From a virus: a stretch of DNA of 49,985 nucleotides. The notes under the pieces are model-generated. The model was given only the letters and a program-made list of their open reading frames with translations, was not told the origin of the DNA and did no database searches. Both the position numbers and the translations under genes were made by a program. Location: positions 1 to 49,985 of the IMG/VR virus record IMGVR_UViG_3300020185_000069; one strand, given 5' to 3'. Shown here piece by piece: positions 4,852-25,943 of this stretch (positions are counted from its first letter, which is position 1; the number at the start of each line of letters is the position of its first letter).

Positions 4852-6537
4852 TTAGAGGGTATTTAAACCATTAACGTAGATCTTAGCGTAGTATTCAGGT
4901 CTCAACATCTTCTTAGCGTAGCGAGTCAAGAGACCTTTTCTTGGAGTGAAGGTTTCAGGATCGTACACTAGAGGTGTCATGATCAATGGAATGTAAGGAG
5001 CAAATGTAGCACCTGTTTCCAAGAATTGTGAACCTTTAAATCCTAAGAGAATAGTATTCTCAGTCATGTATGGGTTTTTATAAACTTCATACTTAGTGTT
5101 CAAGTTACCAACTTTTTGGATACCGAAAGCATAGCTCATAGAGTCAGCATCAGCACCATCAGAAGCAGCGAATCCTGGGATTGACTCAAGAACAGTACCA
5201 ATAGTTGGGGAGCAAACCATGAAGTTAGCACCACCTCTTAAAGTTAACTGGTGGATCTTGTTAGATACCTTGTTAATTTTAGTACCGAGAGTTTGGAACC
5301 ACTGACCTTGTGTGTTGTAGAAAGTACCGTTATCGGTTGCTCCGTTAGCATCAAAAGTAGTGTTATTCTTAGCTGACCAATACTCTGTAGTAAGAGCATT
5401 TTCTATCAACATACCTAGAATTTCTAAGTCAATTTCAAGAGCAATATACTCACTCATGATGCTTGTCAACTCAGCCTCAGCATCTAAACTGTGGTAAGCA
5501 TTCAAGTCTTGAGCAAATTCAGGAGTCCAGACAGCCTTTAGCTTCTTTGTTTTAGCAACAATAGCTTCAGACTTCATCTTAACGTTTACTTCAGGAATTT
5601 CAATAGGAGTATTGAAGGTGCCACCACTTGCACCAAGGGCACTAGCACCATCCTCAAAGTCACCTCTCATGTTATCCTTAGTTTGGATTGGGTAGTTAGC
5701 GACGATGTTACTTTCTTCACCACTATTACCTGCTTCGTCGCCCCAGAAAATGTAAACATTACCTGTACCATCAACATAGTTAAATTGGTTGTAGTTGGAT
5801 GTAACGTTGCTAACTGAAGTTTCAACTACATCAATACCTCTAACACCTTGTAAGTCTACATTAACCATTCCTAATGCTGCAGGTGAACCTGAAGTAAAGT
5901 AAATAGTACCAGCAGCAATAGAAGAAGATAAATCAGAATCATATCCTACTTGACCCCAAGATGCTGTTTGCATTAGTGTTGCTGAATCACCATAGGATTG
6001 GGTAACATTGCTTGAGTAAGTCCACTTACCGGCACCATACAAACCATTAGTAGGGGCAGCAGCAGTGTCAGTAACACCGTACATAGAACCCGCACCAAAT
6101 ACATCACCACCTGGGGTGAATCTACCATCTTGACTAGTTTGGCCATCATTATTACCTGCTATACCGCCGTATTGGAAATCTAGGAAGAAAACAAGGCCAG
6201 AAGGTAAGCTCATTGGTTGAACACTAACGAAATCTTTCGCAGCGATTTGACCAAATACCTTTCTTACGAGGGGAAGAGCAAGACCAGCCCACTGTTCACC
6301 TGTTCCGGCATTAAAAGTAGCACCAGCAGCACCAGCACCCCCACCTGTTTGGGAAGTTTCAACAACAAGTTGCTTGGCTTGGTTTTCAAGGATGAGAGAC
6401 ATATTGTTCTTCTCAACTTCGTTACCTAAACCTTCAAGCAAACCTGTTTTATCCCATTTGTTGGCTAATCTAGAAGCATCAGATTGGACTGATCTCCATT
6501 GGTTAGCACTCTCTAAAAGAGAATTTAAATTTGACAT
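4852..6537 (-). CDS. gp23: Major capsid protein, gp23-like
   Basis: 561 residues, slightly longer than T4 gp23 (521). It matches T4 gp23 in the conserved core, for example AKTKKLKAVWTPEFAQDL and DAEAELTSIMSEYIALEI, and near the C-terminus with FTPRKGLLTRYAKK and YYAKIYVNGL. The first ~70 residues should be removed by the prohead protease gp21; possible sites ending in Glu are ILE and VVE near residues 50-60. The protein assembles the capsid hexamers. Its codons are visibly more GC-rich than most neighbours, as expected for a very highly expressed gene. It lies after gp22 and ends at a strong terminator, the standard T4 head order. Confidence 0.97.
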   Translation of the reverse strand: MSNLNSLLESANQWRSVQSDASRLANKWDKTGLLEGLGNEVEKNNMSLILENQAKQLVVETSQTGGGAGAAGATFNAGTGEQWAGLALPLVRKVFGQIAAKDFVSVQPMSLPSGLVFFLDFQYGGIAGNNDGQTSQDGRFTPGGDVFGAGSMYGVTDTAAAPTNGLYGAGKWTYSSNVTQSYGDSATLMQTASWGQVGYDSDLSSSIAAGTIYFTSGSPAALGMVNVDLQGVRGIDVVETSVSNVTSNYNQFNYVDGTGNVYIFWGDEAGNSGEESNIVANYPIQTKDNMRGDFEDGASALGASGGTFNTPIEIPEVNVKMKSEAIVAKTKKLKAVWTPEFAQDLNAYHSLDAEAELTSIMSEYIALEIDLEILGMLIENALTTEYWSAKNNTTFDANGATDNGTFYNTQGQWFQTLGTKINKVSNKIHQLTLRGGANFMVCSPTIGTVLESIPGFAASDGADADSMSYAFGIQKVGNLNTKYEVYKNPYMTENTILLGFKGSQFLETGATFAPYIPLIMTPLVYDPETFTPRKGLLTRYAKKMLRPEYYAKIYVNGLNTL

Positions 6538-6562: not shown

Positions 6563-7798
6563 TTATTTTATACCTGCTAATTTTTTAAAGCGTGATACCA
6601 TTGCATCTTCTTCTACAACATTTTCGGTTATAGGACGCTTAGGAGCAACACCCGCAGGTTTTGAAGCAAAGCCCATAGATTCTTTAATATTAGACTTAGT
6701 TGATTTAGCAACTAGGTTTTCATTTAACGATTCAAAAATAACTTTTGCTTCTTTTACTGTTTCGGCTTTATCAAAAGCCTTTAAAACCTTAATTTTTTGA
6801 TTTTCAGTCAAATTCTTGGCTCTGAAAATCTTGTTTGTGTAAAGGAGTTTAGAATTAAGGAGATTAACCTCATTAAGTTCAGATTGAAGGTGCTTAATAA
6901 CAGTTTTAGCTTCTTTAAGCTCTTTACCTTCTGAGGGGGTGTTGAATTGTTGGGGTAGAAATTCCATAGCAGATAATACTTTTTCAACAGTAGTTCCTGC
7001 TTTTTCAGCAAATTTAGCTAATTTTTCTTTCATACCTTCTTCAAGTTCCTCTTCATAAATTTGAGATTCTTTGGTGGTTGTAGTAAGGCCTGAGTCAATT
7101 TCAGGGAAAAGTTTATTAAATGCTTCTAAAGCATCCTCAACTTTAACTCCTAATTTTTGAGCAAACTGCTTAACTTTATCCATTTTACCTTCTTGAAGAT
7201 CAATATCATCAACTTCAATGTCTACGTCAGCATCTCCTTCCATACCATCGTCTGTGTCTTCAGCTTCTTCAGCTTCAGATTCATCAGCGTTTGGTCCGGG
7301 AACAAGTTCACCATCTTCGATCATGTCCTCAATAACATCTTCAATAAAGCCTTGTAACTCATCTTCAGTCATGTTTTCAAGATCAAGTTCAGCATCGTCG
7401 TCGCCTTCGGCTTCTTCAGCTTCTTCAGCTTCTTCCATACTGTCATCCATTCCTTCTTCCATTTCGGATTCACCTTCTTCTAATTCTAACTCCGCTAAAA
7501 TTTCTTCAAGATCAAGGTCCTCTTCGAGTTCCTCTTCCTCCTGGAGGTTTTCTTTAGCAGTTTTTTCTTTACCTTCTGCTTCCATTTCTTTTGCTTCTTC
7601 TTGCTTTTCCTTATCGACTTCAGCAAGATCATCTTCTGTGATCTCTTCTTCGTCGAGTTGGGAAATTTTTTCAGAAAGCATAGATTGGAGTTGTGGGGTA
7701 AAGGCTTCTTCTAAAGCAGCTTTCGCATTAGCGATAGCGACTTCTTTAACAGCTTTTGCGTCAGCAATAGCTTCTCTTAACAAATCTCTATTTGCCAT
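6563..7798 (-). CDS. gp22: Prohead core scaffold protein, gp22-like
   Basis: 411 residues from the ATG at 7798 (MANRDLLREAIADAKA). An in-frame extension to 7939 exists but would run through a terminator, hairpin and promoter-like motif, so it is rejected. The N-terminal helix is followed by a very long Glu/Asp-rich region (about 60-230) and helical segments with two related stretches (QFAQKLGVKVEDALEAF and KFAEKAGTTVEKVLSAM). The C-terminus is VSRFKKLAGIK. Position between gp21 and gp23, high acidity and helical content fit the T4 scaffold that is degraded by gp21 during head maturation. The acidic repeats generate long serine-rich frames on the opposite strand that are not genes. Confidence 0.9.
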   Translation of the reverse strand: MANRDLLREAIADAKAVKEVAIANAKAALEEAFTPQLQSMLSEKISQLDEEEITEDDLAEVDKEKQEEAKEMEAEGKEKTAKENLQEEEELEEDLDLEEILAELELEEGESEMEEGMDDSMEEAEEAEEAEGDDDAELDLENMTEDELQGFIEDVIEDMIEDGELVPGPNADESEAEEAEDTDDGMEGDADVDIEVDDIDLQEGKMDKVKQFAQKLGVKVEDALEAFNKLFPEIDSGLTTTTKESQIYEEELEEGMKEKLAKFAEKAGTTVEKVLSAMEFLPQQFNTPSEGKELKEAKTVIKHLQSELNEVNLLNSKLLYTNKIFRAKNLTENQKIKVLKAFDKAETVKEAKVIFESLNENLVAKSTKSNIKESMGFASKPAGVAPKRPITENVVEEDAMVSRFKKLAGIK

Positions 7799-7911
7799 AA
7801 TTCCTAAATTGTTTTGGGTTGGGAAAATACGCTTATTCTGTGAAAGCGTAATAAAAATTAATAATAGTGGGTATCGTATAAAAAGACGATACATTCTAGG
7901 ATAAATATGGT
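7799..7911 (-). promoter_or_regulatory. Long gp22 leader with promoter-like motif and hairpin
   Basis: The gap upstream of gp22 is unusually long for this genome. A partial junction motif (minus strand ATATTTATCC, 7899-7908) comes right after the gp21 terminator. A perfect 7-bp hairpin follows: GTATCGT at 7871-7877 pairs with ACGATAC at 7886-7892 around an 8-base loop. A separate transcript for the scaffold and capsid genes, with a structured 5' leader, is inferred. Confidence 0.5.
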
Positions 7912-7943
7912 AAAAAAAAGGAGAAGCGATTTCTCGCATCTCC
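7912..7943 (-). terminator. Rho-independent terminator after gp21
   Basis: On the minus strand GGAGA and GCGA pair with TCGC and TCTCC around the loop GAAA (stem 7920-7929 with 7934-7943, one A-A mismatch), followed by eight T. It lies about 27 bases past the gp21 stop and separates gp21 from the gp22/gp23 unit. Confidence 0.85.
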
Positions 7944-7969: not shown

Positions 7970-8581
7970 TTATATAATCGGACATTGTCCGTTGTTGCAT
8001 AAAATTTCAGTTATAATTTCATTAACTTTTAAATATTCACTCTTTTTAGGGGAAAACTCTAATCCTTCATTTACAGGAGATACATAAGCCCCTGGGGTAG
8101 ATGGGGTAGACACAAAATCCCAGCATAAAAGTTCGAAATCATCTTGTACCTCTTGAGTTTCACCTAACTGTTTTAAACTACCCATACCACGGGAAGAAAC
8201 CCCTACCGTAATACCATTTTTAAATAACTCAGTTAGAATATTACCTGAGGGGGTTGGGAGGATTTCTATTTTTCCTATTACGTCATTCCCATTCCACCAA
8301 ATATTTGTGATATTATGAGAAACATTTTTCAGGTTAATAACTTGAGAATCAGGGTGATCAAGTTCGCCTAATGCTCTTTTTTCTTTAATGGGTCCCTCTA
8401 AATAGTTTTTAACTTCTCTTTCTAAAACCTGTCGAGGGTAGTATCTCCCATTGCCATTTTTAGTTTCAGCAGATTGAAGAATCCCTTCCACAAGCAAATT
8501 ACCTTCATCGGTTTGAACCGCTTCAGTAATTGCTTGGGGAGAAAGTGTAAAAAGTTGAGTATCTATGAGAGTTTGCCTCAT
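7970..8581 (-). CDS. gp21: Prohead maturation protease, gp21-like
   Basis: 203 residues, close to T4 gp21 (212). Family motifs are clear: KNGNGRYYPRQVLEREV (41-57), ALGELDHPDS (70-79, catalytic His76), NVSHNITNIWW (86-96), TPSGNILTELFKNG (110-123) and VGVSSRGMGS (126-135, catalytic Ser129 or Ser130). This herpes-assemblin-like serine protease digests the scaffold and trims capsid proteins before DNA packaging. It overlaps the preceding gene by four bases (ATGA) and ends at its own terminator. Confidence 0.95.
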   Translation of the reverse strand: MRQTLIDTQLFTLSPQAITEAVQTDEGNLLVEGILQSAETKNGNGRYYPRQVLEREVKNYLEGPIKEKRALGELDHPDSQVINLKNVSHNITNIWWNGNDVIGKIEILPTPSGNILTELFKNGITVGVSSRGMGSLKQLGETQEVQDDFELLCWDFVSTPSTPGAYVSPVNEGLEFSPKKSEYLKVNEIITEILCNNGQCPII

Positions 8582-9516
8582 TTGTTATTTTTGGAATATT
8601 CAAGTTCCTGCATTGCTTTAGAACAATACTTTTCGTATAAAGCAATTTCAGCTTGAACTGCGGATGTCTTAGCTTCATCTATAAACTCAGCTAAATTTTC
8701 ATCTTCATTTATAGTATTAAGAGTTTCTTGTAAGGCATTTATTTTACCTTCATAAGCTTTTACTGCTACTTCGTTGGCCGCCCTTTTAGATAACTTTTCA
8801 ACTTCTTTAATAAAATCTTTAGGTTGACTTTTTTTCTCTTTTAAAGGAGCTTTTTCCTTTTCAGTAGGCTCTTCTTCTAAAGCAAATCCACCTGGTCCCC
8901 CAGCTTCAGGAGGTGGAGGGGGAAGATCTTCCTCTTTTTTGCCTTCTTTAGTTTCTTTTTTAGCTTCTTCAGCTAAGAAAGCAGCAAATTTATCTTCATA
9001 AGATGGTGTTTTGCGATCAGCAAATGGGTTTCCTATAGAAGGCATACCTGCTACAGCTTCTTCAAGTAATTCTTTAAGTTGTGTTGATTTGTTCATTTTA
9101 TTTTCTTTTAGATCTCCGTAGCCGGAGGATTTATGTTTGCCTGTGGGGTCTTGGGGTTCTGTTGAGGTTTCGTATCCCAATCCTTTAACACCAAAAGCGG
9201 CGTTTTTAGTATAAAAAATGGGATCGTTTTTTAAATTTTTAAGCACTATTTCTTTAGCTTTTAATAAGGCTTCAGAAGGATTGTCTGCAAGTAGATCAGG
9301 ATTCTGTTCCATTTCAACTCTAAGGCCCTTTATATATTGATCAAAAATTTGGTTGTTTAAATTATCTTTATCTTTATAATCATAACCTGCTACTTCTTTT
9401 TCACTTACTTCTTTAGTAGTTTTAGTTTCAGTAGCTTTTGCTTCAAGGATTGTAAAAGGGTTATCGTGTTCAATTCCCAAGTATCCTTTAAATTTATTTA
9501 TCATATCGTTTGCCAT
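8578..9516 (-). CDS. Probable prohead core-associated protein
   Basis: 312 residues, no family recognised. It is highly charged, with Lys/Glu-rich helices, a proline run at DLPPPPPEAGGPGG (about 199-212) and a C-terminal coiled-coil-like region (residues 235-305). In T4 the slot between portal gp20 and protease gp21 holds the small core proteins gp67 and gp68, so a prohead-core role is inferred from position and composition only. An internal Met at MNKSTQLKELLEEAVAG looks like the beginning of typical core proteins and could be a second start. The start codon follows an A/T-rich leader without a Shine-Dalgarno sequence. Confidence 0.6.
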   Translation of the reverse strand: MANDMINKFKGYLGIEHDNPFTILEAKATETKTTKEVSEKEVAGYDYKDKDNLNNQIFDQYIKGLRVEMEQNPDLLADNPSEALLKAKEIVLKNLKNDPIFYTKNAAFGVKGLGYETSTEPQDPTGKHKSSGYGDLKENKMNKSTQLKELLEEAVAGMPSIGNPFADRKTPSYEDKFAAFLAEEAKKETKEGKKEEDLPPPPPEAGGPGGFALEEEPTEKEKAPLKEKKSQPKDFIKEVEKLSKRAANEVAVKAYEGKINALQETLNTINEDENLAEFIDEAKTSAVQAEIALYEKYCSKAMQELEYSKNNK

Positions 9517-9528
9517 GGTAATACGTAT

Positions 9529-10062
9529 TTATTTTTTATGTAAATCTATATAATCTATTCCTTTAGATTTTTTTCTAAGGGATTTTTGATTAACAGGTTT
9601 ATAACCCATTTTAAGGTATGAAGATGTTGGATTTTTTCCAAAAGCATACTTAGTTAAGTAACTACCCCCTGCAGATGTTGTGGTCATTTCCCTAATTTGA
9701 GATTTTACTACATCATACTGATTGGGGTAATTTTTTCTAAAAAATGTTCTAAAAGAGTTAAATGCTTTAGAAATATTACTTATTTGGGATTGGAATTTTT
9801 CATCTTTTCTCAGAACATCATTTGTTGATAATTCTTCAGCATCATTCCTGGCCTGTCCCAAACTTTTAAATAGCTTCCCGAAACTAGGAAGGCGTACTAT
9901 ACTATGAGTAACATTCCCGATGGGGTCTATATCAGTAGTTTTATAATAAGTAGTTAAATCAGGGGTAAAGAAATCATTAACCATATCAATTTTCCCATAT
10001 TTATCTTCAATATTTTTAAGAAAAATAGAATTTAAATCTTTAGGTTTAATTATCTCAGCCAT
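9529..10062 (-). CDS. Head-module protein of unknown function
   Basis: 177 residues, basic C-terminus (SLRKKSKGIDYIDLHKK). No motif recognised. It is mostly alpha-helical in appearance and sits between the portal and prohead core genes, sharing a TAATG overlap with the upstream gene. A prohead assembly role is possible by position. Confidence 0.6.
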   Translation of the reverse strand: MAEIIKPKDLNSIFLKNIEDKYGKIDMVNDFFTPDLTTYYKTTDIDPIGNVTHSIVRLPSFGKLFKSLGQARNDAEELSTNDVLRKDEKFQSQISNISKAFNSFRTFFRKNYPNQYDVVKSQIREMTTTSAGGSYLTKYAFGKNPTSSYLKMGYKPVNQKSLRKKSKGIDYIDLHKK

Positions 10063-10916
10063 TACTTTACTTTAGAAAGTTCTTCAATTAACCCATAATA
10101 TTGTAGTAGATTGACTAGACTATCGTTATCAATTTTAGAATTTTTATCCATTTCTACTAATAATTTAGTTACCTCTACTAATTTTATTTTAGTAATGCTA
10201 TCTTTTACTTTTAAAACGTATGATTCTAAAGATGATTTTAATTCATTAATCTTGATGTTATAAATCTCCTTTAAACGAGGAGTATTATCAATTGAATTAA
10301 TAAATTCTTTAAGTATTTCTTTTTGCCCTTTATTTAAATTAGCGTACTTACCATTAAATTTCTCGAGCATTACCTTGTAAGTAAGTACTCTTAAGTCTTT
10401 ATCATACTTAGAAAATTCTTCTATTAGATTTTGCTTAACCCTCTTTTCGTTGATATCTGATTGGGTTAAATACTCTAAAATAGTAACTTTATTATTTATA
10501 ATTTCTTCGGTTTCAGATAATTTATCCGAGTTGTATATTTCTATTAGTTTATAAAAAGAAGCGTGGGCTTTATATCCTATTACCTGATGTCTGAAAAACT
10601 CATCTAATTTGTAATGGTTCTTAATTTCATTAATAAGGTTATATTTTTCTCTTCTTAGGGCACTTCTATTTAATTTACGGGTAGCTTCTAATATAGTATT
10701 TAAAGTAATCTCGGCTTTTTGTTCAGTTAGATATTTGTTTTTAAACAAAGATTCATATAATTTATATTCTTTACCTAATTCCGTTTTAGTAAAAGCTTTT
10801 TTTAAAATATTTAGTGAAGGAGACTCATTACCTGAAAGGGTATCTGCTGTTATTTGTCTCACTAGAAGTTCAAATAAAAGGCCCGTATTTTTATACTTAG
10901 AATGTTTAATTTTCAT
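10062..10916 (-). CDS. Head-module helical protein of unknown function
   Basis: 284 residues, almost entirely helical, Lys/Glu/Leu/Asn-rich. It starts MKIKHSKYKNTGLLFELLVRQ; a short basic stretch followed by a G-L-L-F-E-L-L-V-R-Q helix is common to proteins encoded just after the portal in marine T4-like phages, as far as I recall. No enzymatic motif is visible. A junction motif precedes it and its stop overlaps the next start (TAATG). Confidence 0.6.
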   Translation of the reverse strand: MKIKHSKYKNTGLLFELLVRQITADTLSGNESPSLNILKKAFTKTELGKEYKLYESLFKNKYLTEQKAEITLNTILEATRKLNRSALRREKYNLINEIKNHYKLDEFFRHQVIGYKAHASFYKLIEIYNSDKLSETEEIINNKVTILEYLTQSDINEKRVKQNLIEEFSKYDKDLRVLTYKVMLEKFNGKYANLNKGQKEILKEFINSIDNTPRLKEIYNIKINELKSSLESYVLKVKDSITKIKLVEVTKLLVEMDKNSKIDNDSLVNLLQYYGLIEELSKVK

Positions 10917-10947: not shown

Positions 10948-12858
10948 TTAGTTCCTTAATTGGTTTTCGTCTAATAATGACTCATCCTGTTCAAAAACCA
11001 GCTGTTTGCGATTAAGGGGAATCTTTTTAAGCATATCTTGATTTTGGAGATAAACTGTTTTAGCTTCTAATGCTAGAGGAGAACCTCCTTTATATGTGGG
11101 TTTTATTGAATCTGATTCATTTTCTTTGCCTTTCATTCTGTCAACTCCTAATCTATCTTTACCAAAGGCATTATCTTGGGTATTAATATTAGAAACTTTT
11201 TCTTTAGGACGACCTAATTTAGGGTCATTTTCATCATACCCTTCGGGAACTTCACCATCTCCGTAATATCTACCTTTGCCATATAATGAAGCTAAGTCGT
11301 GAGGGGTTCCATAGGATTGACCTGTTTCTAAAGGATCATTTCCTTCAGCCTCAATTTGAGTTAAACGGAAAGCACGTTTAGCATCTTCTCTAGATAAGTC
11401 TCTAAATTCATTATATTCATCCTCACTCATATGGAATAAATGGTCATAAATAAAGTCTGAAGGGAATAGCTTGGTTTCCATCATTTGGGCTGCTAAGTCC
11501 ATTTTTTCCTTCATTAATGCTACTCTTTCTTGATCATATATAATTGAAGGTGTAGTTAAATTAAGTTCAAAGTTAGTTAAATCATCCCCATCATACCCCT
11601 GAGTGTAAAGGTGGACAATTGCAATTTTAGTTAATTCAGAAAGAATTATTCTTTGAATACGTTCTACAGTACGCGCAAATCTAATATCTTCAGCCGCTAA
11701 TGTAGCTTTACCATCTGTATTTTCGTCATAACCTAAAAATGCTTTGGGAATTTTTAAGGCGGCAAATAATTTATCCCTTAGGTATTCAACATCTGTTATG
11801 CCATCATATTGGAGGCCTGGGGTGGTTTCTATTTTGGTAGAAGTATCATTTCCCCTTACAGGGATATAAAAATCTTCAAGCATATTTTGCATATTATACT
11901 TAAGATTGTAGTCACCTGTGTCTTGGTCTATGTAAGGGGTGCGTTTCATCTTAGAAATAGTTTTTTGCATAAAATTTTCTATTTCTGCAGGTGGGATTGC
12001 CCCCACATTTATGTAAAAAATACGTTTTTCGGGAGCACGGGCAATCCTATGTACTAGCATAGCATCTTCCATTAATGTATACTGTTTGAATAGTTTACGA
12101 GCAGGCTCTATATAACTTCTACCATAGGGTAAATAATTTACATCTGAAAGGAGTCTGAAGTGGGCTATTTCATAGTTGTCAAAATAAATGGCTCTACTAG
12201 ATTGGGAATTTTTAGAAACAGATTGTAGACCTCCAAAATACCCCCCATATTCTCCCCCACCACTTAACCCATCAGGGTCAAATTTAAACTTAACCTCCAT
12301 TTGAGATGATTCAGCACTTTGAATTTTTTCCTCTCTAATAATATTATAGGCTGTATAAGGGATAACATTGTATACCCCAAATTTTTCTGCTATTTCTAAT
12401 TTTAGGAAAAAGTCACCATACTTACACATTTGACGGATCCACATCCATAAATTGAATTCTATATTCAAAACATCATAAAATAGATTATATAAAATCTTTT
12501 GAAGATTTTCATCTGATGATTTAATTTGGAGAACCTCTCCCATAGCATTTTTAAGAGTAGACTCATCCGCTAATATATCCAAGGCTGATGCTATTATGGC
12601 GTCGGTATCCATAGCTTCATAATCAGAATATAATTGAGGCCTAAGGGTTTGGTAATTTAAAGCGGGATTATATATAGAAGTTTGATTAGAAGTATATAAT
12701 CTATTATATCTATCAATCATAGAGTTAGTTTCTACCTCACCCCTTTGTTGCATTTGATTAAAATCAAGAACTTTTAAGTTATTTCCTCCAGTGTTGCGGA
12801 TTATTACATCTGTAGAGAATAATCTTTTTAATCTTGTAAATACTGTTGTATCAGCCAT
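10948..12858 (-). CDS. gp20: Portal vertex protein, gp20-like
   Basis: 636 residues (T4 gp20 is 524). Characteristic portal segments are LDILADESTLKN, MWIWIRQMCKYGDFFLKLEI, PYGRSYIEPARKLFKQY, EDAMLVHRIARAPEKRIFYI, TPYIDQDTGDYNLKY and LFAALKIPKAFLGYDE. It forms the dodecameric ring through which gp17 pumps DNA and where the tail attaches. The extra length is a C-terminal tail after about residue 520 that is charged and repetitive in Asp/Gly/Lys. It lies directly after the terminase and is preceded by a junction motif whose TAA is the terminase stop. Confidence 0.96.
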   Translation of the reverse strand: MADTTVFTRLKRLFSTDVIIRNTGGNNLKVLDFNQMQQRGEVETNSMIDRYNRLYTSNQTSIYNPALNYQTLRPQLYSDYEAMDTDAIIASALDILADESTLKNAMGEVLQIKSSDENLQKILYNLFYDVLNIEFNLWMWIRQMCKYGDFFLKLEIAEKFGVYNVIPYTAYNIIREEKIQSAESSQMEVKFKFDPDGLSGGGEYGGYFGGLQSVSKNSQSSRAIYFDNYEIAHFRLLSDVNYLPYGRSYIEPARKLFKQYTLMEDAMLVHRIARAPEKRIFYINVGAIPPAEIENFMQKTISKMKRTPYIDQDTGDYNLKYNMQNMLEDFYIPVRGNDTSTKIETTPGLQYDGITDVEYLRDKLFAALKIPKAFLGYDENTDGKATLAAEDIRFARTVERIQRIILSELTKIAIVHLYTQGYDGDDLTNFELNLTTPSIIYDQERVALMKEKMDLAAQMMETKLFPSDFIYDHLFHMSEDEYNEFRDLSREDAKRAFRLTQIEAEGNDPLETGQSYGTPHDLASLYGKGRYYGDGEVPEGYDENDPKLGRPKEKVSNINTQDNAFGKDRLGVDRMKGKENESDSIKPTYKGGSPLALEAKTVYLQNQDMLKKIPLNRKQLVFEQDESLLDENQLRN

Positions 12859-17632: not shown

Positions 17633-17880
17633 TTTTTTATGATTTTAATTTTTAATTTGTCGTAACCTTTTATTACACGATGTAAATATCCTAAAGGAAT
17701 ATCAAAAACGAGGTTTTCTGTAAGTTCAAATGGGAGTTCTTCATCAAATTGAAATTTCCACCCATTTCCCTCTATAACTTCTATTGTTCTATCTTCTTGG
17801 TCTTCATGCCAAATTAATGACATTGGATCTACATCTTTAGAAAATATTCTTATATTGTTTTCATCAATATAAGGATCCAT
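17629..17880 (-). CDS. Small conserved phage protein, unknown
   Basis: 83 residues from the ATG at 17880, which forms TAATG with the stop of the preceding gene; a TTG two codons earlier is less likely. Mostly beta, with the segments IEVIEGNGWKFQFDEELPFEL and VFDIPLGYLHRVIKG. The latter suggests a small beta-barrel with one helix. Function unknown. Confidence 0.65.
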   Translation of the reverse strand: MDPYIDENNIRIFSKDVDPMSLIWHEDQEDRTIEVIEGNGWKFQFDEELPFELTENLVFDIPLGYLHRVIKGYDKLKIKIIKK

Positions 17881-18548
17881 TACCAATAAGTATTCATTTT
17901 ATTACCTAAACCAAGTGCAGGAGCATATCTAGGAAGGTTACAACTCCAGTATCCTGCTTTAGTTCTGTCCTTTTTATTTTTACAATTATGACGGGCTGCA
18001 AATGCCGCTCTTGCTTTAGGATTTCTAATTTTAGCCCTTAAACCACCTGATCCAAATGATACTTTTTTGATTTTTTTAGTCTTAGGGTTTCTTACATAAA
18101 CATAGTAAGCTTTAGAACCACCTCTTTTTGGTTTACCAATGGGTGGATCTTTTTTCTTTTTTTTCTTTTTTTTAGCTTCGTCTAATTCTTCTTCATTTAC
18201 AGCAGGTAAATCAAGTGGTACTTTTTCACCTTCAAAAATACCAAATTTACCAATATCAGTATTTTCCACTAAATGGCGGCTATTTTCATCTAATTGAATA
18301 GTACCCCACTCATTTAACATACGGGCTTCAGCAAATAATTGTAAATACTTTTTAGATCCTATTCTAAATACATTATCTTGTAATGAGACACCATTATCGA
18401 TGTGATACCGTAGGCCTTCGCTTATAGGCGCTTTACTTTCGAGTAATACGGGTTTATCTTCACATTGGTCACACCCACATCCACAATCTTCCTCTTTTAA
18501 GATAGAATAATTAATTAAAGATTCTTGGATTAATTTTTTCAGTGACAT
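17880..18548 (-). CDS. Cys/Lys-rich phage protein, DUF5872-like C-terminus
   Basis: 222 residues from the ATG at 18548; an in-frame extension to 18587 lies inside the preceding gene and the motif. The N-terminal helix (MSLKKLIQESLINY) precedes a Cys cluster CGCGCDQCED (about 22-31), possibly metal-binding. A Lys-rich linker follows (EAKKKKKKKKDPP). The C-terminal domain carries KVSFGSGGLRAKI, ARAAFAARHNC and KAGYWSCNLPRY. This basic Cys-containing domain is shared by several marine T4-like phages and resembles the protein at 21524-22000. Probably a virion or DNA-associated protein; function not established. Confidence 0.65.
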   Translation of the reverse strand: MSLKKLIQESLINYSILKEEDCGCGCDQCEDKPVLLESKAPISEGLRYHIDNGVSLQDNVFRIGSKKYLQLFAEARMLNEWGTIQLDENSRHLVENTDIGKFGIFEGEKVPLDLPAVNEEELDEAKKKKKKKKDPPIGKPKRGGSKAYYVYVRNPKTKKIKKVSFGSGGLRAKIRNPKARAAFAARHNCKNKKDRTKAGYWSCNLPRYAPALGLGNKMNTYW

Positions 18549-18551
18549 GGT

Positions 18552-18565
18552 TATAAATATTATTA
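18552..18565 (-). promoter_or_regulatory. Junction motif TAATAATATTTATA
   Basis: The initial TAA is the stop codon of the 411-aa gene. The ATG at 18548 follows only three bases later, so a transcript starting downstream of this box would be leaderless or begin inside the gene. Confidence 0.45.
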
Positions 18566-19798
18566 AAGTCCCAAAGCTGATTTCCAAAGGTCTGTAATCT
18601 CATATCTAACAGATCCGTCTTCTTGTTCTATTCTTTTAAATACTAAAGAACCACCTCTAGATTCGTTAGTTCCTCTAAAGTGGATGTATAAATCTTCAAA
18701 TTGATCTAAGTTACCTTTAATAGGTTTAACTTGTTTAATAAATTCTTCAATAGTGTTAGGTACAGTTCCTTTAAAAAAACAATTAGCTCGTCCTTTGGAT
18801 TCTGCTCCAAACTTTTTATCTCCAGTATAAGCTTCATATTTAGATTCTTCTGAGAGCTTATATGATCCTCGGGTTTCGGTACCTGTGTTTATTGTGTAAC
18901 GATTTGGTGTAGTAGAGACAAAAAATGCTAAATTTTTGGCTGTAGATGGTTTTTTAAACAATTCACCCCTATTAGCTGTGGCTTGGATATCTAATAATTC
19001 TTTCTTTAAATCATCAGCACTGAAAAGTTGGAGTGCTCTTGAAGGGATAACCCAATTTTCTACAAATACAGCATTTCCTGCTTTTAAGCTAATTTGAAAA
19101 TTAGGTCCTATTTCAGGTTTAAGGTCTTTATTAAAGGATACTTGAACATCAGATTTAGGGTTTCCTTTTCCTTTCCATTCAGGGTCACCTAAATAAGTTA
19201 TATTGTAAGAAGTATCATCATATTTAAATCCCCAATCTTTATCAGATTTATTGATAAATAATTCTACTACTTGTTTTTCTTGGGGGTGTCCGGGGGTGAA
19301 AGAGTGGTATATTGAAGGGTTTGATTTATTTACCTCAGGCTCATATTTCGCTACTTCTTTTCCTGAGGGTTTGAGTATATCACTGATTTTTATGTAGAGT
19401 TTTTTGTTGTTAAAAGATATTAAAGCATAAGTACTAACACCTTTTTTTACTAAATCGTCAGCATTTTTAATTAAAATGTTAAATTCTTCTCCTTTTTTAA
19501 TTTCTTCAGCAGAATTAAAATTTTTATCAAATAAAGTAGTATTTTTATCTGCTTTATATTTTACATCATCAGCACTTCCTACAATATGTTTATCGTTATC
19601 TTGAACATATTTTATAAATGCTCCATAAGTTTGAGGATACCCTGTAGCGGTTCCACTTAGACTAGCTTCTTTTAAATCAATTCCCATCTTTTTTAACATC
19701 CCCTCTAACATTAACCAATCTTTAGGATCGTTAATATCAGGATACCCTTTAGGGAATTTATAAGAAACTTTACGTAAAAATTGTTCTAATATATCCAT
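18563..19798 (-). CDS. Unknown protein, possible PD-(D/E)XK-type nuclease fold
   Basis: 411 residues. No family recognised with confidence. The stretch GNPKSDVQVSFN (about residues 214-225), followed by NFQISLKAGNAVFVENWV (about 235-252), gives an S-D-V...S-L-K pattern like the D...xxK core of PD-(D/E)XK restriction-type nucleases. Flanking parts look like mixed alpha/beta. It is followed by the DUF5872-like gene and preceded by small unknown genes, with TAATG coupling at its start. A virion-associated or DNA-processing role is open. Confidence 0.5.
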   Translation of the reverse strand: MDILEQFLRKVSYKFPKGYPDINDPKDWLMLEGMLKKMGIDLKEASLSGTATGYPQTYGAFIKYVQDNDKHIVGSADDVKYKADKNTTLFDKNFNSAEEIKKGEEFNILIKNADDLVKKGVSTYALISFNNKKLYIKISDILKPSGKEVAKYEPEVNKSNPSIYHSFTPGHPQEKQVVELFINKSDKDWGFKYDDTSYNITYLGDPEWKGKGNPKSDVQVSFNKDLKPEIGPNFQISLKAGNAVFVENWVIPSRALQLFSADDLKKELLDIQATANRGELFKKPSTAKNLAFFVSTTPNRYTINTGTETRGSYKLSEESKYEAYTGDKKFGAESKGRANCFFKGTVPNTIEEFIKQVKPIKGNLDQFEDLYIHFRGTNESRGGSLVFKRIEQEDGSVRYEITDLWKSALGL

Positions 19799-20325
19799 TA
19801 TAAGTCGTCTACAGATTGTGGTACAGTTGATACAGGTTCCGTAGGTTCAGTTGAAGGGGTTTCTATATCATCTCCAAGATCCCCAGTGTCTACTTCAAGA
19901 TCTTCTGAAGGTTTATCTGTGTTTCCATAACTATATCTTAGTAAACGGGCAATAGCTTCAGAGGCTTGTTGTTGTTCTGGAAGGGACTCTAGGAAGTATT
20001 TTTTGCCTGCTACTTGGGCTATAAATAATCCCTTTTTCTCTCCATTTTTACCTTGGTAAATTAAATAAAAATCAGCCCCATTTATTAGTTTGATTCTAAA
20101 TGTAGTAGGACGTGGGGATACCCAATCTATATCTTCTATAAAGGGTTCAAATTGAAAATCAAATAGGTCATCCATTATCTTTTGTAATGGAGGAAATTGG
20201 TTTATTACGGGAAATGGGCTAAGTTCTTTAGCAATATCCTTAGGATCTTCTAAAGGATCAGATTTTTCAGCGTATGCTTTTTTAGCTAGCTTTTTGATTT
20301 TTGCTATGAATTCAGACTTTTGCAT
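19798..20325 (-). CDS. Unknown acidic phage protein
   Basis: 175 residues. An N-terminal basic helix (SEFIAKIKKLAKKAYAEK) precedes a compact mixed domain containing TTFRIKLINGADFYLIYQGK and KKYFLESLPEQQQA. The C-terminal 45 residues are acidic and low-complexity (Asp, Glu, Thr, Pro), probably disordered. No enzymatic motif. TAATG junctions on both sides place it in a translationally coupled set with its neighbours. Confidence 0.6.
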   Translation of the reverse strand: MQKSEFIAKIKKLAKKAYAEKSDPLEDPKDIAKELSPFPVINQFPPLQKIMDDLFDFQFEPFIEDIDWVSPRPTTFRIKLINGADFYLIYQGKNGEKKGLFIAQVAGKKYFLESLPEQQQASEAIARLLRYSYGNTDKPSEDLEVDTGDLGDDIETPSTEPTEPVSTVPQSVDDL

Positions 20326-21086
20326 TATCTTTTTACTGTTGCAAGTTTATTTAACTCAGCTGTTGAGAGTACCTTATATTGCTTTTTTGTTCCTTTTAGT
20401 TTAGCTAATGCTTTATCAATACGATCTAATTTGGCTCCATACTTGTCAGCCATAGGACCTCCTTCTGGCTCTGCCTCTTGTTCCATGTCTGCCATTAAGC
20501 GTTCACGTTTTTTTTCTAAAGCAGCTATTTTATTAGAATCTTCTTGTAGATAATTTTTGGGTGCTTCTAATTTACCTTGTTCACCATTTTTAATGTTGGC
20601 ATAATCTTTAGCATCCTTCATAGTTTTAAATTTTCCTACAAGGACACCATTTTCACCAGTTATATCAAATGGCTCACCTTCCCAAACATCAAACCACCCC
20701 CTAGGAGCAGCAGTAGCTACATACTTAGCATCTGGGTTGTTTTTAAGATGGTGTTCGTTTTGAGTTTTGTCTATAATACCCTTTTGTAGGGCATCCGGAA
20801 GATTTTTTTGTCCTCCTTTTAAAGTAGGATTATCATCATACTTTTTAGTAAATTTAGTTTCTCTTACTTTTCTAGCTAGAGCATTTACATTTAAGTCTGT
20901 TTTACCTGTCATAGGATTATATCCGGGTTCAAGTTCATCTTGATTACTTCTATAAGATTTGGCGGGTTTTTTACCAAATCTATTAGTAATAGCTAAGTTT
21001 ATAATTTCTTCTAAATCTGCACTGAAATCAGTTCCTATTGAAAAATCAGTGTTAACATCTGGAATGGTTTCTTTTAGATTTTTCAT
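20325..21086 (-). CDS. Unknown phage protein with C-terminal coiled coil
   Basis: 253 residues. The middle has WFDVWEGEPFDITGENG and VGKFKTMKDAKDYANIK, the latter like a small beta-hairpin-helix unit. The C-terminal third is Lys/Glu-rich and helical (KIAALEKKRERLMADMEQE). No family recognised. The stop overlaps the next gene's start (TAATG) and the start overlaps the preceding gene by four bases. Confidence 0.6.
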   Translation of the reverse strand: MKNLKETIPDVNTDFSIGTDFSADLEEIINLAITNRFGKKPAKSYRSNQDELEPGYNPMTGKTDLNVNALARKVRETKFTKKYDDNPTLKGGQKNLPDALQKGIIDKTQNEHHLKNNPDAKYVATAAPRGWFDVWEGEPFDITGENGVLVGKFKTMKDAKDYANIKNGEQGKLEAPKNYLQEDSNKIAALEKKRERLMADMEQEAEPEGGPMADKYGAKLDRIDKALAKLKGTKKQYKVLSTAELNKLATVKR

Positions 21087-21517
21087 GATGCCCCTCTATC
21101 TGTTATTCCTACATCTTTTGAAACTGCCTGGAATTCTTTCTTTTCAGTAAATTTAGCAGAATTAAGAATTTGATTGGCAAGTTCTTCTTCCCCTGCTTCT
21201 TTTGCTTTTTTAGCTAATAAAACTAATTCATCACCAATGTCATCTAATATTCCTCTTTTATCAAGAGTGGGTTCAGGAATGATTGGGTCTGTTTCTACTT
21301 CAATATTATCAGATACTTCTTCATCTTCTTCAGCAATTTCAGCTAAAATTTCATTACGAAGATAATTTTTAAATTCACTCATTGTTACTTTATTGAGTTC
21401 TTTAGTAGCAGCAGTAAGATCTTGTGTGGCTTTTGTTTGGGCCTCAATATCCTCAACACTATTTTCTTCTTGAAGATAGAGTTCTTTTATTTGTTCTTTT
21501 AATTCTGAGAGTTTCAT
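21083..21517 (-). CDS. Unknown acidic helical protein
   Basis: 144 residues, strongly acidic and helical (KLSELKEQIKELYLQEEN; EILAEIAEEDEEVSDN). No membrane segment or motif. The N-terminal 'M-K-x-x-E-L-K-x-x-I' helix is common to several proteins of this genome's unknown module, perhaps a shared interaction helix. Confidence 0.55.
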   Translation of the reverse strand: MKLSELKEQIKELYLQEENSVEDIEAQTKATQDLTAATKELNKVTMSEFKNYLRNEILAEIAEEDEEVSDNIEVETDPIIPEPTLDKRGILDDIGDELVLLAKKAKEAGEEELANQILNSAKFTEKKEFQAVSKDVGITDRGAS

Positions 21518-21523
21518 TTGTTG

Positions 21524-22000
21524 TTATTTTGATTTTGCAGCTTTTTTACCCCATGTTTTACCTTTACCAGGGTCTTTACACTTTGATGGTGTTGGCTTAC
21601 ATGCTGGGTATTTGGAGCGTTTTTCGTCTTTTTTTCTACCACAGGCTTTATATCCACCTTTACCATCAGGGGCATTACAGTCAACCCATCCCCCTTGTTT
21701 ACCTTTAGGGCCAGACCTAGCAAACCATTTGTTAAGATTTTCTCCCTTCTTTTTTTTTTCGAAAATAGTTTGGATTGCTTCTTGTATTTGTTCTTCTTTT
21801 ACACCTTTCCAAATATTACCTTTACGACATCTAACTACGGCTCCTGATTTGTATGCGGAGGGTTTATCGAATTTTCTGTCCGCTATTCGAAGACATCTGT
21901 CGCGTTTTTTTTTCTTTTTTTTACGGTTTCTAGATGTCTTCCCTTTCCTTTCGTCAAGGGCAAATTTAATTGCTTCTTTTATGTTTAATTTGGAAGACAT
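21524..22000 (-). CDS. DUF5872-type Cys/Lys-rich protein
   Basis: 158 residues, very basic (NRKKKKKKRDRCLRIADRKF). The C-terminal domain has WFARSGPKGKQGGWVDC, then ACGRKKDEKRSKYPACKPT and PSKCKDPG, which I recognise as the DUF5872 pattern found in marine phages and some large DNA viruses. Cys spacing suggests metal binding. The N-terminus may bind nucleic acid. The role is unknown. A second frame on the same strand (21514-21723) is a shadow. Confidence 0.75.
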   Translation of the reverse strand: MSSKLNIKEAIKFALDERKGKTSRNRKKKKKKRDRCLRIADRKFDKPSAYKSGAVVRCRKGNIWKGVKEEQIQEAIQTIFEKKKKGENLNKWFARSGPKGKQGGWVDCNAPDGKGGYKACGRKKDEKRSKYPACKPTPSKCKDPGKGKTWGKKAAKSK

Positions 22001-22896: not shown

Positions 22897-25152
22897 TTAA
22901 TTTTTAAGGGAATCTTCCCAATTTCTAAATAAAATATTACCTTCTTCGTATGCCTCACGCTCAATACTCTCTAAAGCATCATCTTCATTAGTATTTGTAG
23001 TATTACTATGATCTAAAGTGCCTTCTAAATTTTGATGATGGTGAATTAATTCATGGGCGTATGAACGTAAAACGTCTTTAGGATGTCTATCTAATGTGTA
23101 AAGAACAACTTTCTGTTCACTTGGCATATAATAAGCAGTCCTACCAAATATATTAGCAGCATTTTCTTTATCATCCTCTATAAATTCTAATTGGGGGTAA
23201 GGTTTTAAATTTAAACCTCCTTCATTTGCCATATAATCCGTTAATGAAGTTATTTGAGGGGTTAAATCTTCTTCTAATGTTTCATACCCGGAACCATAAG
23301 GAGATGATTTTTGATCGTGGTTAGGATCCACTTCTGTTAAGTGTTTTAAGTAGGGTTCTTCAGATCCATCCATGTAAATAATTGTCCAATCTTCAGGGTT
23401 ATTTCCTATTTTATTAATTTTGTTAACCTCTTTATCTCCTATGGTTAATTTTTCTTCTAACTCAATTTTTTCATTGGGAGTTTTAAAATTCCTTTTACGC
23501 ATAACTGTTTTAGCAATAGCTTTATTAGCCATTTTCATAAACGGAATATTGATATTAGTTTCCGTATCTGTAGCAACTACACTTTTATACTTGTTGAGAA
23601 AATCAATAAACTCTTCTCTATTATCACCTAATTTAGTAAAAAAGTCTTCTAATTCAAGATAATTTATTTGAGGATTATTCCTAGGGTCATTTAGTCTATC
23701 AAAAAAGTGATTACCTGAAAGATCTACATCTATAGGGTTTAATTCTCTATCTGCTAAGCTATCTAAATCTTCAACATCTTGTTGATCAAAATCCTCTTTT
23801 ATTTTAGTTAAAGAAACACCAGGCATGTTGGTTTCTAACCAATTCATCCAAGTTTCTCTTACAAAATCTTCTTCTTCAGGATCCAAATCATACTCATAAC
23901 TATTAAATAAATCATCAATAGCTTGTTGTAAACTTATTTTTTTAGCTTTAGCTTTAGTCCTTAGCCCTTGAATATGGCCTGGAATTTCATAGTCAAGAGT
24001 AAGGTATTCTACATCTGGTAAATCATCTTGGTCTACTCCATCTTCACCAGGTCTAACTCCTTTTTCAGCTCTATATTGGGCAAGGTGTTCTAATTCGTGT
24101 CTAACAGAATTTCTTAATTCAGCACTTAACTCGCTATATAATTGTTTATCAAGAAGTTCTGGGTTATATTTTATCTCAATTGCTATATCTTTAGGTCCTG
24201 CAGATCCTTCTACCTTGAAGGGCATAAATCCTAGTCCTTTTTTCATAGGATAAAACCCATATACTAACTCGTATTCTTTACCTACTAAAGCACCTTCAGT
24301 TGAATCTTCTACTTTAGTACCTACAGTTTTAAGGAATTGTTTCATTAAAAAACGAGTTTGCATTCGGGTTTCTGCATCGTATGCAATACGTTCTTGTAAA
24401 GGTTGTTCTTCTAATCCTAACGTAGCTAATTTAGTATAGTATTGAGGATCTTCATCCAAATGATCTAAAGCAATTTTTAAAGCTATTTTAGGATCGTCAG
24501 TATGTTCTTTTTCAACTTCAATTCCTTTCCTTAACTCTTCTTTATCATACTTATGTTTATATTCTTTAACCACATCCGTTAACATATCCCAAATTTCATC
24601 TATTTCGGGGATGTCTGGGAAGAATTGTATAAATGTTTCTTTATCTTTTGCAAGTAAAGCTTTACGGGCTTTAGTTCCACTTACTGAGTCGGAAGTGATA
24701 ATTTTTTTGGGTTGTATATTAGTATAGTCTCCCCTTCTTAAAGCTCTAGTTCTTTTAATAAAATCATAAAAATCATCTTTATTACCCTCTCTCTCACCCA
24801 TAAACCAATAAATTTCCTTATCGGGATTTTTTTTAGCATAAGAATATATAGCCCCAATAGGAGGTTTATTATCAGGAGAGGCCATTACCACTACTTTACT
24901 AGGAAGGGATTTTTTATATATATTCCAAATAGCTAATGATTCTTCTTGACTAATTGAATCTCGAGTCCCACTACCTACCAATACAATTAAAGCATCCATT
25001 TCAGGATTTTCTTGTAAAGCTTTCTTTACTACCTCTAAATGTCCTGATGTAGGGGGTTTAAATCCTCCTCCAAACATTCCAACTATTTTCTTTTTAGGCA
25101 ATGTATTTTCACCTAAAATTCCTTCTACTAATGCTTGGGATAAAAAATTCAT
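22897..25152 (-). CDS. Nucleotidyltransferase fused to two HExxH domains
   Basis: 751 residues with an unusual architecture. N-terminus: cytidylyltransferase-like fold with FGGGFKPPTSGHLEVV (27-42, the H-x-x-x-x-G-H-type site degenerate to T-S-G-H) and SVSGTKARKAL (155-165, the I-S-x-T-x-x-R equivalent). Next is a DUF5661-like segment, DPKIALKIALDHLDEDPQYY (219-238). Then a first zincin-like motif HELEHLAQY (351-359) with a downstream IPGHIQGL. The C-terminus has a second HELIHHHQ (700-707) with a later E-x-x-A-Y-E-E-G that could supply the third ligand. Functions could be nucleotide transfer plus protein processing. It overlaps the kinase gene by four bases. Confidence 0.8.
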   Translation of the reverse strand: MNFLSQALVEGILGENTLPKKKIVGMFGGGFKPPTSGHLEVVKKALQENPEMDALIVLVGSGTRDSISQEESLAIWNIYKKSLPSKVVVMASPDNKPPIGAIYSYAKKNPDKEIYWFMGEREGNKDDFYDFIKRTRALRRGDYTNIQPKKIITSDSVSGTKARKALLAKDKETFIQFFPDIPEIDEIWDMLTDVVKEYKHKYDKEELRKGIEVEKEHTDDPKIALKIALDHLDEDPQYYTKLATLGLEEQPLQERIAYDAETRMQTRFLMKQFLKTVGTKVEDSTEGALVGKEYELVYGFYPMKKGLGFMPFKVEGSAGPKDIAIEIKYNPELLDKQLYSELSAELRNSVRHELEHLAQYRAEKGVRPGEDGVDQDDLPDVEYLTLDYEIPGHIQGLRTKAKAKKISLQQAIDDLFNSYEYDLDPEEEDFVRETWMNWLETNMPGVSLTKIKEDFDQQDVEDLDSLADRELNPIDVDLSGNHFFDRLNDPRNNPQINYLELEDFFTKLGDNREEFIDFLNKYKSVVATDTETNINIPFMKMANKAIAKTVMRKRNFKTPNEKIELEEKLTIGDKEVNKINKIGNNPEDWTIIYMDGSEEPYLKHLTEVDPNHDQKSSPYGSGYETLEEDLTPQITSLTDYMANEGGLNLKPYPQLEFIEDDKENAANIFGRTAYYMPSEQKVVLYTLDRHPKDVLRSYAHELIHHHQNLEGTLDHSNTTNTNEDDALESIEREAYEEGNILFRNWEDSLKN

Positions 25153-25943
25153 GCTAAAAAGGATTTTAATTTAGATTGTGCTTCTTCAGCTGATATGGAG
25201 GTGTTTATGATGTCTTTTACTCCTTCATCAGCTAGTAATGCTTTTATTTGCTCAGCATCTTTAGCTTTTTGAGCATCAGATTTAGCTTGTTGGGCAGGGG
25301 TTTTAGGTTTAGTACCTTTAGGGGTAAAAGGTTCAAGGTATTTAGTTACTATAGATTCCAAATCTGTTAATTTTTCATCTCCTAAAGTGTTAGCAACAGA
25401 TACAAAATTGTTACCAAACAATTGTTTATAAGGAGCAAAATTTTGAGTTACACTTTTCCATGTTCTCATTACTATAGCAGGGGCTAAACTTCTATCTTCC
25501 CCCCCTGACTTTTCAAACCTATCCTGGTTTTGTTTAAGGGAGCGTTCTAGATCAGTATAAACATAAAGCATAAAAACTTCATATCCTGTTTCTTCTAATT
25601 CACTTTTTAATTTAGATGTTTCTTTTAATGAGGCGCCTGTGCCATCTAATATGAATGATTCTTTTTCTCCTATAGTAGTTGTTAAATTACTTTTAAACTC
25701 TTTATTAGCTGCAGCCATAGCTTTAGCTTGATTACTTCTTTCTTCAGGAGAAGCGTTTTTTAAGTCCAATGTAATATTAGCCTTTTTTAACATAGGAACA
25801 TAAATGTCATCTACATTTAATACCTTTAAATTCCCTAAGTCTAAACCCCTTAAAATATACCCTTTTCCAGCACCAGGAGCTCCTGCTAATATAATAGCTT
25901 TGGGTTTACCTTGTATTTCTTTTAAAATATCATATAATTTCAT
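25149..25943 (-). CDS. Zeta-toxin-like P-loop kinase
   Basis: 264 residues. Walker A is GAPGAGKGY (21-29) and the D-D pair in VLNVDDIYVPML (38-49) follows as in zeta-toxin/UDP-GlcNAc kinase and polynucleotide kinase-like proteins. ESFILDGTGAS and FMLYVYTDLERSLKQN complete the core, with RTWKSV downstream. The C-terminal 60 residues are Lys/Ala/Glu-rich. No antitoxin is adjacent, so a nucleotide- or RNA-modifying kinase is at least as likely as a toxin. A junction motif lies 13 bases upstream. Confidence 0.75.
   Translation of the reverse strand: MKLYDILKEIQGKPKAIILAGAPGAGKGYILRGLDLGNLKVLNVDDIYVPMLKKANITLDLKNASPEERSNQAKAMAAANKEFKSNLTTTIGEKESFILDGTGASLKETSKLKSELEETGYEVFMLYVYTDLERSLKQNQDRFEKSGGEDRSLAPAIVMRTWKSVTQNFAPYKQLFGNNFVSVANTLGDEKLTDLESIVTKYLEPFTPKGTKPKTPAQQAKSDAQKAKDAEQIKALLADEGVKDIINTSISAEEAQSKLKSFLA

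Follow-up and report, generated by a model that had tools for sequence, protein, structure and literature searches.

The 49,985-nucleotide stretch of viral DNA analysed here (IMG/VR record IMGVR_UViG_3300020185_000069, hereafter the window) holds a late gene cluster of the T4-like type, with clear gp17-, gp20-, gp21- and gp23-like genes. On its minus strand, as for all window features described below, an open reading frame (ORF) with an ATG start at 22897..25152 encodes a modular, polyvalent-type polyprotein of 751 residues, the core of which is shared by 94 relatives. A preliminary description had listed a nucleotidyltransferase (NTase), a DUF5661 segment and two HExxH domains in this single ORF, and Pfam matches and conservation bear out that list. 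Beyond it, we found a conserved module at residues 456-563, a small beta-rich module at 568-607, a linker at 608-628, an N-terminal peptide resembling a capsid-targeting sequence (CTS) and [ILV]xE motifs at the junctions. The chain joins several biochemically unrelated domains, as polyvalent proteins do.

The NTase domain (residues 20-197; 24562..25095) is of the NadD/PPAT/NMNAT type. Pfam CTP_transf_like matches residues 26-63 (E 1.6e-4; 22.3 bits, cut-off 21), TIGR00125 matches above its cut-off (8.8e-7), PDB profile hits place the domain in the NadD/PPAT group, and the modelled NTase of a relative, L116, retrieves PPAT in Foldseek (2.3e-7, TM-score 0.80 by target length). The (H/T)xGH and ISxTxxR-type motifs that, with a Rossmann-like fold, mark NadD, NMNAT and PPAT are both intact, as TxGH (residues 35-38) and SGTxxR (158-163). 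Across a 21-row alignment, G37, H38, S158, G159, T160 and R163 are invariant and T35 nearly so. All matches to equivalog models for single named substrates fell far under cut-off; as only the general TIGR00125 model passes, no single named substrate can be assigned. Known members of the NadD/PPAT fold adenylylate small phosphorylated cofactors rather than proteins, and a role in NAD metabolism is a reasonable guess. Protein AMPylation by this domain was considered and dropped, the NTase superfamily being the wrong one.

Both HExxH domains have zincin architecture and are predicted metalloproteases. Zincin-1 spans residues 255-453 (23794..24390) according to alignment and the AlphaFold model of L116, and zincin-2 spans residues 629-751 (22900..23268) according to alignments and an AlphaFold model. 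HELIH lies at residues 700-704 (23041..23055), as previously described, whereas HELEH, earlier placed at 351-355, actually occupies 352-356 (24085..24099). Of the distinct zincin-1 domains, 55/55 retain the pattern HE[LIM]EH, and their alignment has an invariant column at Glu 389 (23986-23988), the candidate third ligand. As for zincin-2, its HE..H is invariant across 22 diverse relatives, embedded in a conserved RHPKD..RS..HE..HH.QN motif, and Glu 731 and Glu 733, either of them a candidate third ligand, are invariant in the final helix. The concern that the HExxH residues might not be conserved in homologues has thus been allayed: both motifs are conserved, a chance occurrence was considered and dropped in view of their conservation in all relatives, and the unusual multi-enzyme fusion with two zincin-type sites holds up. 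In the AlphaFold model of window residues 454-751, zincin-2 consists of a helix, three strands, the HExxH helix and the Glu helix, with a predicted local distance difference test score (pLDDT) mostly of 74-93 that drops to 46 in the stretch joining the final two helices. The L116 model gave a helix, strands, the HExxH helix and the Glu helix for zincin-1; it did not resolve zincin-2 (pLDDT about 30-50), which the window model did. The order of elements seen for zincin-2 agrees with the core described for the zincins of polyvalent proteins in the sections of the survey of that class drawn on here (PMC5512222). The nearest folds to zincin-2 in Foldseek, IrrE and selecase, were not significant, and PDB sequence-profile searches with zincin-1, zincin-2 and the 456-563 module returned chance-level matches only.

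Between these domains lie smaller modules. DUF5661 (residues 203-249, ending in LGLEE; 24406..24546) has a Pfam match over residues 203-244 (E 2.4e-11); its position differs in the relative L002, and in phage Immuto it is held by a separate gene. The module at residues 456-563 (23464..23787), delimited by alignment and recognisable by HFFDR...NIPF...IAKTxMRK, may be a RegB-like RNase judging from its sequence: Pfam REGB_T4 matched 3/21 members weakly (best 0.0014), values of 0.0014-0.0017 lying under the cut-off, and the window's copy was poorly modelled. The beta-rich module (residues 568-607; 23332..23451), delimited by strands in the AlphaFold model, has just two matches among the ORFs of all loci. 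The mobile linker that follows (residues 608-628, VDPNHDQKSSPYGSGYETLEE; 23269..23331) is defined by its PYGSGY contexts, and [ILV]xE comes next in 25/26 distinct ones. A PADLOC scan of the window protein gave no match, and one of the relative L089 gave a weak match to RmrA.

Relatives were collected by scanning IMG/VR with profiles of both protein ends, which yielded more than 500 NTase and 393 zincin-2 candidates, of which 80 each were kept. We defined the family as the 94 distinct viral ORFs with an NTase and zincin-2 in one chain, so that zincin-2 is universal by selection. Their lengths range from 286 to 1337 residues, the smallest complete members having about 320-360. The NTase and the C-terminal zincin-2 form the fixed core, and the remaining modules lie between and behind them in changing order. 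These shuffled modules comprise DUF5661, zincin-1 (detected in 53/94 members), the 456-563 module, a zinc-ribbon block, a Pol-beta-like NTase, the PYGSGY linker, DUF6934 and a block that we take to be DUF5872-like. Plastocyanin-like, HYD1-type ADP-ribosyltransferase (ART)-like, 5'-nucleotidase-like and third zincin-like domains are single cases. Such extensive shuffling is a further hallmark of polyvalent proteins. Composite alignments, one of all domains and one with separate module fragments, were misaligned and were both excluded. Among cultured phages, only the Flavobacterium Immuto phages were found to have both NTase and zincin-2. Some individual members can be mentioned. The polyprotein of L089 (10001-12973) includes a copper domain of the plastocyanin/azurin type (2.2e-17) as well as the third zincin-like stretch, and the ART-like module of L043 (3689-6610) scores 2.2e-4, slightly under cut-off. 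The gene copy in L003 (2972-5042) is broken by a frameshift near residue 275, possibly a sequencing error or decay.

The module junctions share a motif. When the edges in 83 non-redundant proteins are set solely by homology breakpoints, with circular shifts as nulls, [ILV]xE occurs at 260/487 breakpoint starts versus 137 in the null (nominal z 13) and at 284/452 breakpoint ends versus 126 (nominal z 17). Taken by junction type, it is present in 85-100% of distinct contexts, against 10-27% by chance. Control motifs in which E is swapped for D, K, N or Q, the spacing is zero or P3 is small or charged stay at 0.7-1.1x; [ILV]xD, [ILV]xK, [ILV]E, ExILV, [AGST]xE and [DKEN]xE lie at 0.8-1.1x, showing no enrichment, and [ILV]xxE and [FYW]xE reach 1.3x. 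The controls and the counts by type are a better argument than the z values. [IL]xE is rare in the cores of the zincins and the 456-563 module, at 0.4-0.6 per 100 residues; the N-terminus has 6.9 and the regions outside the cores 1.7. No such depletion of ExIL, ILxxE or ILE is seen inside those same cores. In the window protein, E197 in VVKE, at the NTase end (24562..24564), is a candidate gp21 site by motif position and junction statistics, as are E249, E254, E453, E567, E607 and E628 at other junctions.

The same motif closes the N-terminal peptide. Residues 1-15, MNFLSQALVEGILGE (25108..25152), resemble a capsid-targeting sequence in which E10 and E15 each precede a candidate gp21 cut; E15 and I/L13 are invariant among 10 close relatives. 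An [IL]xE falls within the first 22 residues in 74/74 distinct NTase-first N-termini, mostly ending at position 10, 14 or 15. T4-type capsid-targeted internal proteins likewise have a short N-terminal peptide ending in L/I-x-E. In T4, gp21 cleaves after L/I-x-E, the targeting peptides of internal proteins measure 10-19 residues, and in IPIII positions 4 and 7 are important to targeting, positions 8 and 10 to processing (PMC9026906). The T4 record has both ipII and ipIII starting with MKTYQEFIAE-A. Cyanophage NMNAT-like proteins align with ipIII position by position in this region, starting with MKSFLQFLKE-A in S-SCSM1, MKNFSSFLTE-A in S-CREM2, MKKFSAFLNE-A in S-SM1 and similarly in others. Those of S-SCSM1 and S-CREM2 were detected by mass spectrometry in CsCl-purified virions, and the authors report other cyanophages whose virions also yielded NMNAT-like proteins (PMC9602691, PMC10665884). 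By sequence, these proteins are remotely related to the window NTase (cyanophage hits at E 2-8), and the virion data are independent, experimental but indirect support for packaging of the NTase. Separately, in L158 (3747-6632), gene 187 of Synechococcus phage Syn7803C8 encodes a 961-residue protein that starts with the CTS-like MITPKSLLSFLSE-AAD and lies near an NMNAT-like gene.

The phage encodes the protease that such peptides call for in T4-type systems. The gp21-like head maturation protease (7970..8581; phrog_207, E 1.6e-58), our proposed processing enzyme, lies in a gene order like that of T4: gp20, small core ORFs, gp21, gp22-like, gp23. The portal gp20-like gene is at 10948..12858 (phrog_213, 4e-61) and the major head protein gp23-like gene at 4852..6537 (phrog_138, 5e-66). 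Among polyprotein-bearing records, gp21 homologues occur in 6/6 of at least 90 kb, plus one of 44 kb. The candidate scaffold at the T4-like gp22 position (6563..7939) has 21 [IL]xE versus 13.2 expected, and two candidate prohead core proteins have 14 versus 5.2 (8578..9516) and 19 versus 6.5 (10062..10916); the latter two are probably core proteins that, like T4 gp67/gp68, would be cut to pieces. In T4 itself, gp22 has 16 versus 5.8 expected, gp68 and gp21 are also rich, and the tail, terminase and Hoc proteins used as controls lie close to expectation.

From the domains, their conservation and shuffling and the placement of the motif, all observed directly, we consider it probable that the gene product is a multi-enzyme precursor of a T4-like phage, packaged in the head, cut by gp21 and injected. 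Its N-terminal short helix ending in (I/L)xE would act like a T4 capsid-targeting sequence and draw the chain into the prohead core. By analogy with known internal proteins, packaging of the polyprotein is well supported. During head maturation, gp21 would then cut after (I/L/V)xE, both in the N-terminal region and in the linkers that separate the modules; the position of the motif, together with the specificity of the enzyme, strongly suggests such cleavage at the junctions. An NMNAT/PPAT-like adenylyltransferase, DUF5661, zincin-1, the possible RNase-like module and zincin-2 would be released inside the capsid as separate proteins. Given the targeting-like peptide and the cyanophage virion data, they might enter the cell alongside the DNA and become active immediately. 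The NTase would then act on a cofactor of the nucleotide type, for instance NAD, and the zincins, as metalloproteases, would attack host or defence proteins. If each module has its own cut site, modules can be gained, lost and reordered, a shuffling that is directly observed. Whether this amounts to a general, widespread system of gp21-matured effector delivery in aquatic T4-like phages, spanning hundreds of viral contigs and with payloads including adenylyltransferase, metalloprotease, Pol-beta NTase, ART-like, nucleotidase-like and plastocyanin domains, seems to us evenly balanced.

Several points weigh against the proposed packaging and cleavage. Prohead-protease cuts known so far mostly remove propeptides. 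The z values are overstated because the relatives are not independent, and one tail-protein control is also enriched (1.36x, z 3.4). In the window protein, 5/14 [ILV]xE sites (E48, E183, E186, E234 and E433) fall inside modules, so that the motif alone is insufficient to define cutting, and P1' residues are variable at the junctions. The junction motifs could also be left over from genes that fused at targeting peptides, and remain uncut. The N-terminal test demanded a GGF-type NTase close to the start, and members of the Immuto and L010 types open with another domain, lacking the peptide. Finally, the virion data cover remote cyanophage relatives rather than members of the family described here, and both cyanophage studies state that a highly expressed, non-packaged protein might co-purify (PMC9602691, PMC10665884).

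The main rival is self-processing: the product would be a polyvalent protein of the classical sort, packaged or made as a single chain and processed by its own zincins, with gp21 uninvolved. Zincins are the commonest polyvalent-protein domain and are predicted to release other domains, according to the same sections of the survey (PMC5512222), and zincin-2 is present in every member, though by selection. However, the motif at the junctions is the one known for gp21, enriched also in the core proteins of T4 and of the window; minimal members made of NTase and zincin-2 (such as L113, 321 residues) retain it near their start and again where the two domains join; and neighbouring proteins bear N-terminal motifs of the same type. 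We therefore regard self-processing as unlikely, if still the most serious competitor. More doubtful is an unpackaged metabolic enzyme of the NAD/CoA type with accessory domains, made late, in which the motifs are relics. The NadD/PPAT fold and the primase and exonuclease genes upstream would suit such an enzyme, but the peptide present in all NTase-first members and the NMNAT-like relatives seen in virions would not. A structural or tail-associated protein whose zincins attack the cell wall is very improbable: the gene does share a cluster with tail and head genes, but family and profile searches with the polyprotein gave no match to tail or peptidoglycan-binding families, its core is an adenylyltransferase and its targeting-like peptide is of the head type. 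Cell-wall lysis was dropped for want of a supporting domain. Least credible is the earlier proposal that the NTase labels a protein with AMP or CMP and the zincins then cleave it, since, although both activities co-occur in one chain, the fold acts on small cofactors, module order is not fixed, zincin-1 was detected in only 53/94 members and modules that shuffle independently, and are probably separated by the head protease, are unlikely to perform a built-in two-step reaction; of the suggestion of action on host or virion proteins, action on the host is probably right.

The proposed precursor combines features of known systems. Polyvalent proteins, as portrayed in the survey sections cited (PMC5512222), are likewise multi-domain, mosaic, zincin-rich and predicted to be delivered with DNA, and share Pol-beta NTase and ART-type modules with the present family. 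Unlike them, the family has an NTase core of the NadD/PPAT type, an N-terminus resembling T4 capsid targeting and gp21 motifs at its junctions, which point to processing by the head protease instead of the zincins. In those sections, T4-like phages figure only for stand-alone Alt-type ARTs, and Pol-beta NTases only for conjugative-element proteins (PMC5512222). T4 IPI-III and Alt similarly have a short N-terminal peptide cut after L/I-x-E, are injected and form a highly variable payload (PMC9026906, PMC3012670), but each internal protein yields one mature product where the present precursor would yield several. The NMNAT-like proteins of T4-like cyanophages (S-SCSM1 QFG06348.1 and S-CREM2 WNL51073.1) carry, behind an FLxE-type peptide, an NTase of the same superfamily and are detected in virions; in contrast, they consist of the NTase only, with a small C-terminal domain (286-409 residues) and no zincins. 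In the cultured phage Immuto, QQO92100.1 ('nicotinamide mononucleotide adenylyltransferase') holds NTase, zincin-2 and zincin-1 in one 907-residue chain, and the nearby separate gene, starting with MKKSQLRQIIKE-A, carries DUF5661 together with the 456-563 module; QQO92100.1 differs in its extra N-terminal Pol-beta-like domain and in having no obvious N-terminal targeting peptide.

Both the polyvalent-protein class and the T4 CTS/gp21 targeting route are already known. In the open-access literature searched, gp21-type cuts are described as propeptide removal or scaffold fragmentation (PMC9026906), and no account was found of a payload polyprotein that is cut to give several mature enzymes. If correct, our proposal would join polyvalent effectors with T4 capsid targeting and head-protease processing, hitherto separate ideas, in an unusually modular viral route for delivering several enzymes at once from a marine T4-like phage into a bacterium. 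It would explain the free exchange of unrelated modules, each bringing its own cut site. It would also provide a sequence rule, a targeting-like peptide plus inter-module [ILV]xE, to find injected enzymes among unnamed marine T4-like genes, and offer testable candidates for functions in early host takeover and in countering defence. It would further serve as a natural model for loading several cargo proteins into a T4-type head via one tag.

Other genes around the polyprotein may have similar fates. The adjacent P-loop (zeta/PezT-like) kinase (25149..25943), with the N-terminus MKLYDILKE and matches including phrog_16619 'minor head protein' (4.2e-5), is probably co-packaged, judging from sequence. 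N-terminal [IL]xE occurs in about 80-100% of members of the P-loop kinase (79%), 5'-nucleotidase-like and several small families, versus 0-25% in primase, GIY-YIG, oxidoreductase and tail families. The exonuclease family is an odd positive, with N-terminal LxE in 90% of members in a 'RILEISDD' context, possibly by coincidence; because of it, N-terminal LxE alone is no proof. In a run of small ORFs at 17880-22000, several families have CTS-like starts (MSLKKLIQES, MKLSELKEQIKELYLQEE, MSSKLNIKEA), and further packaged proteins are likely there. Elsewhere in the window, collagen-like repeats at 930-1991 indicate a probable tail or fibre protein, and an ORF at 48844-49659 (MKKLYFQSSLPRAGSTLLQ...) was judged by eye to be sulfotransferase-like.
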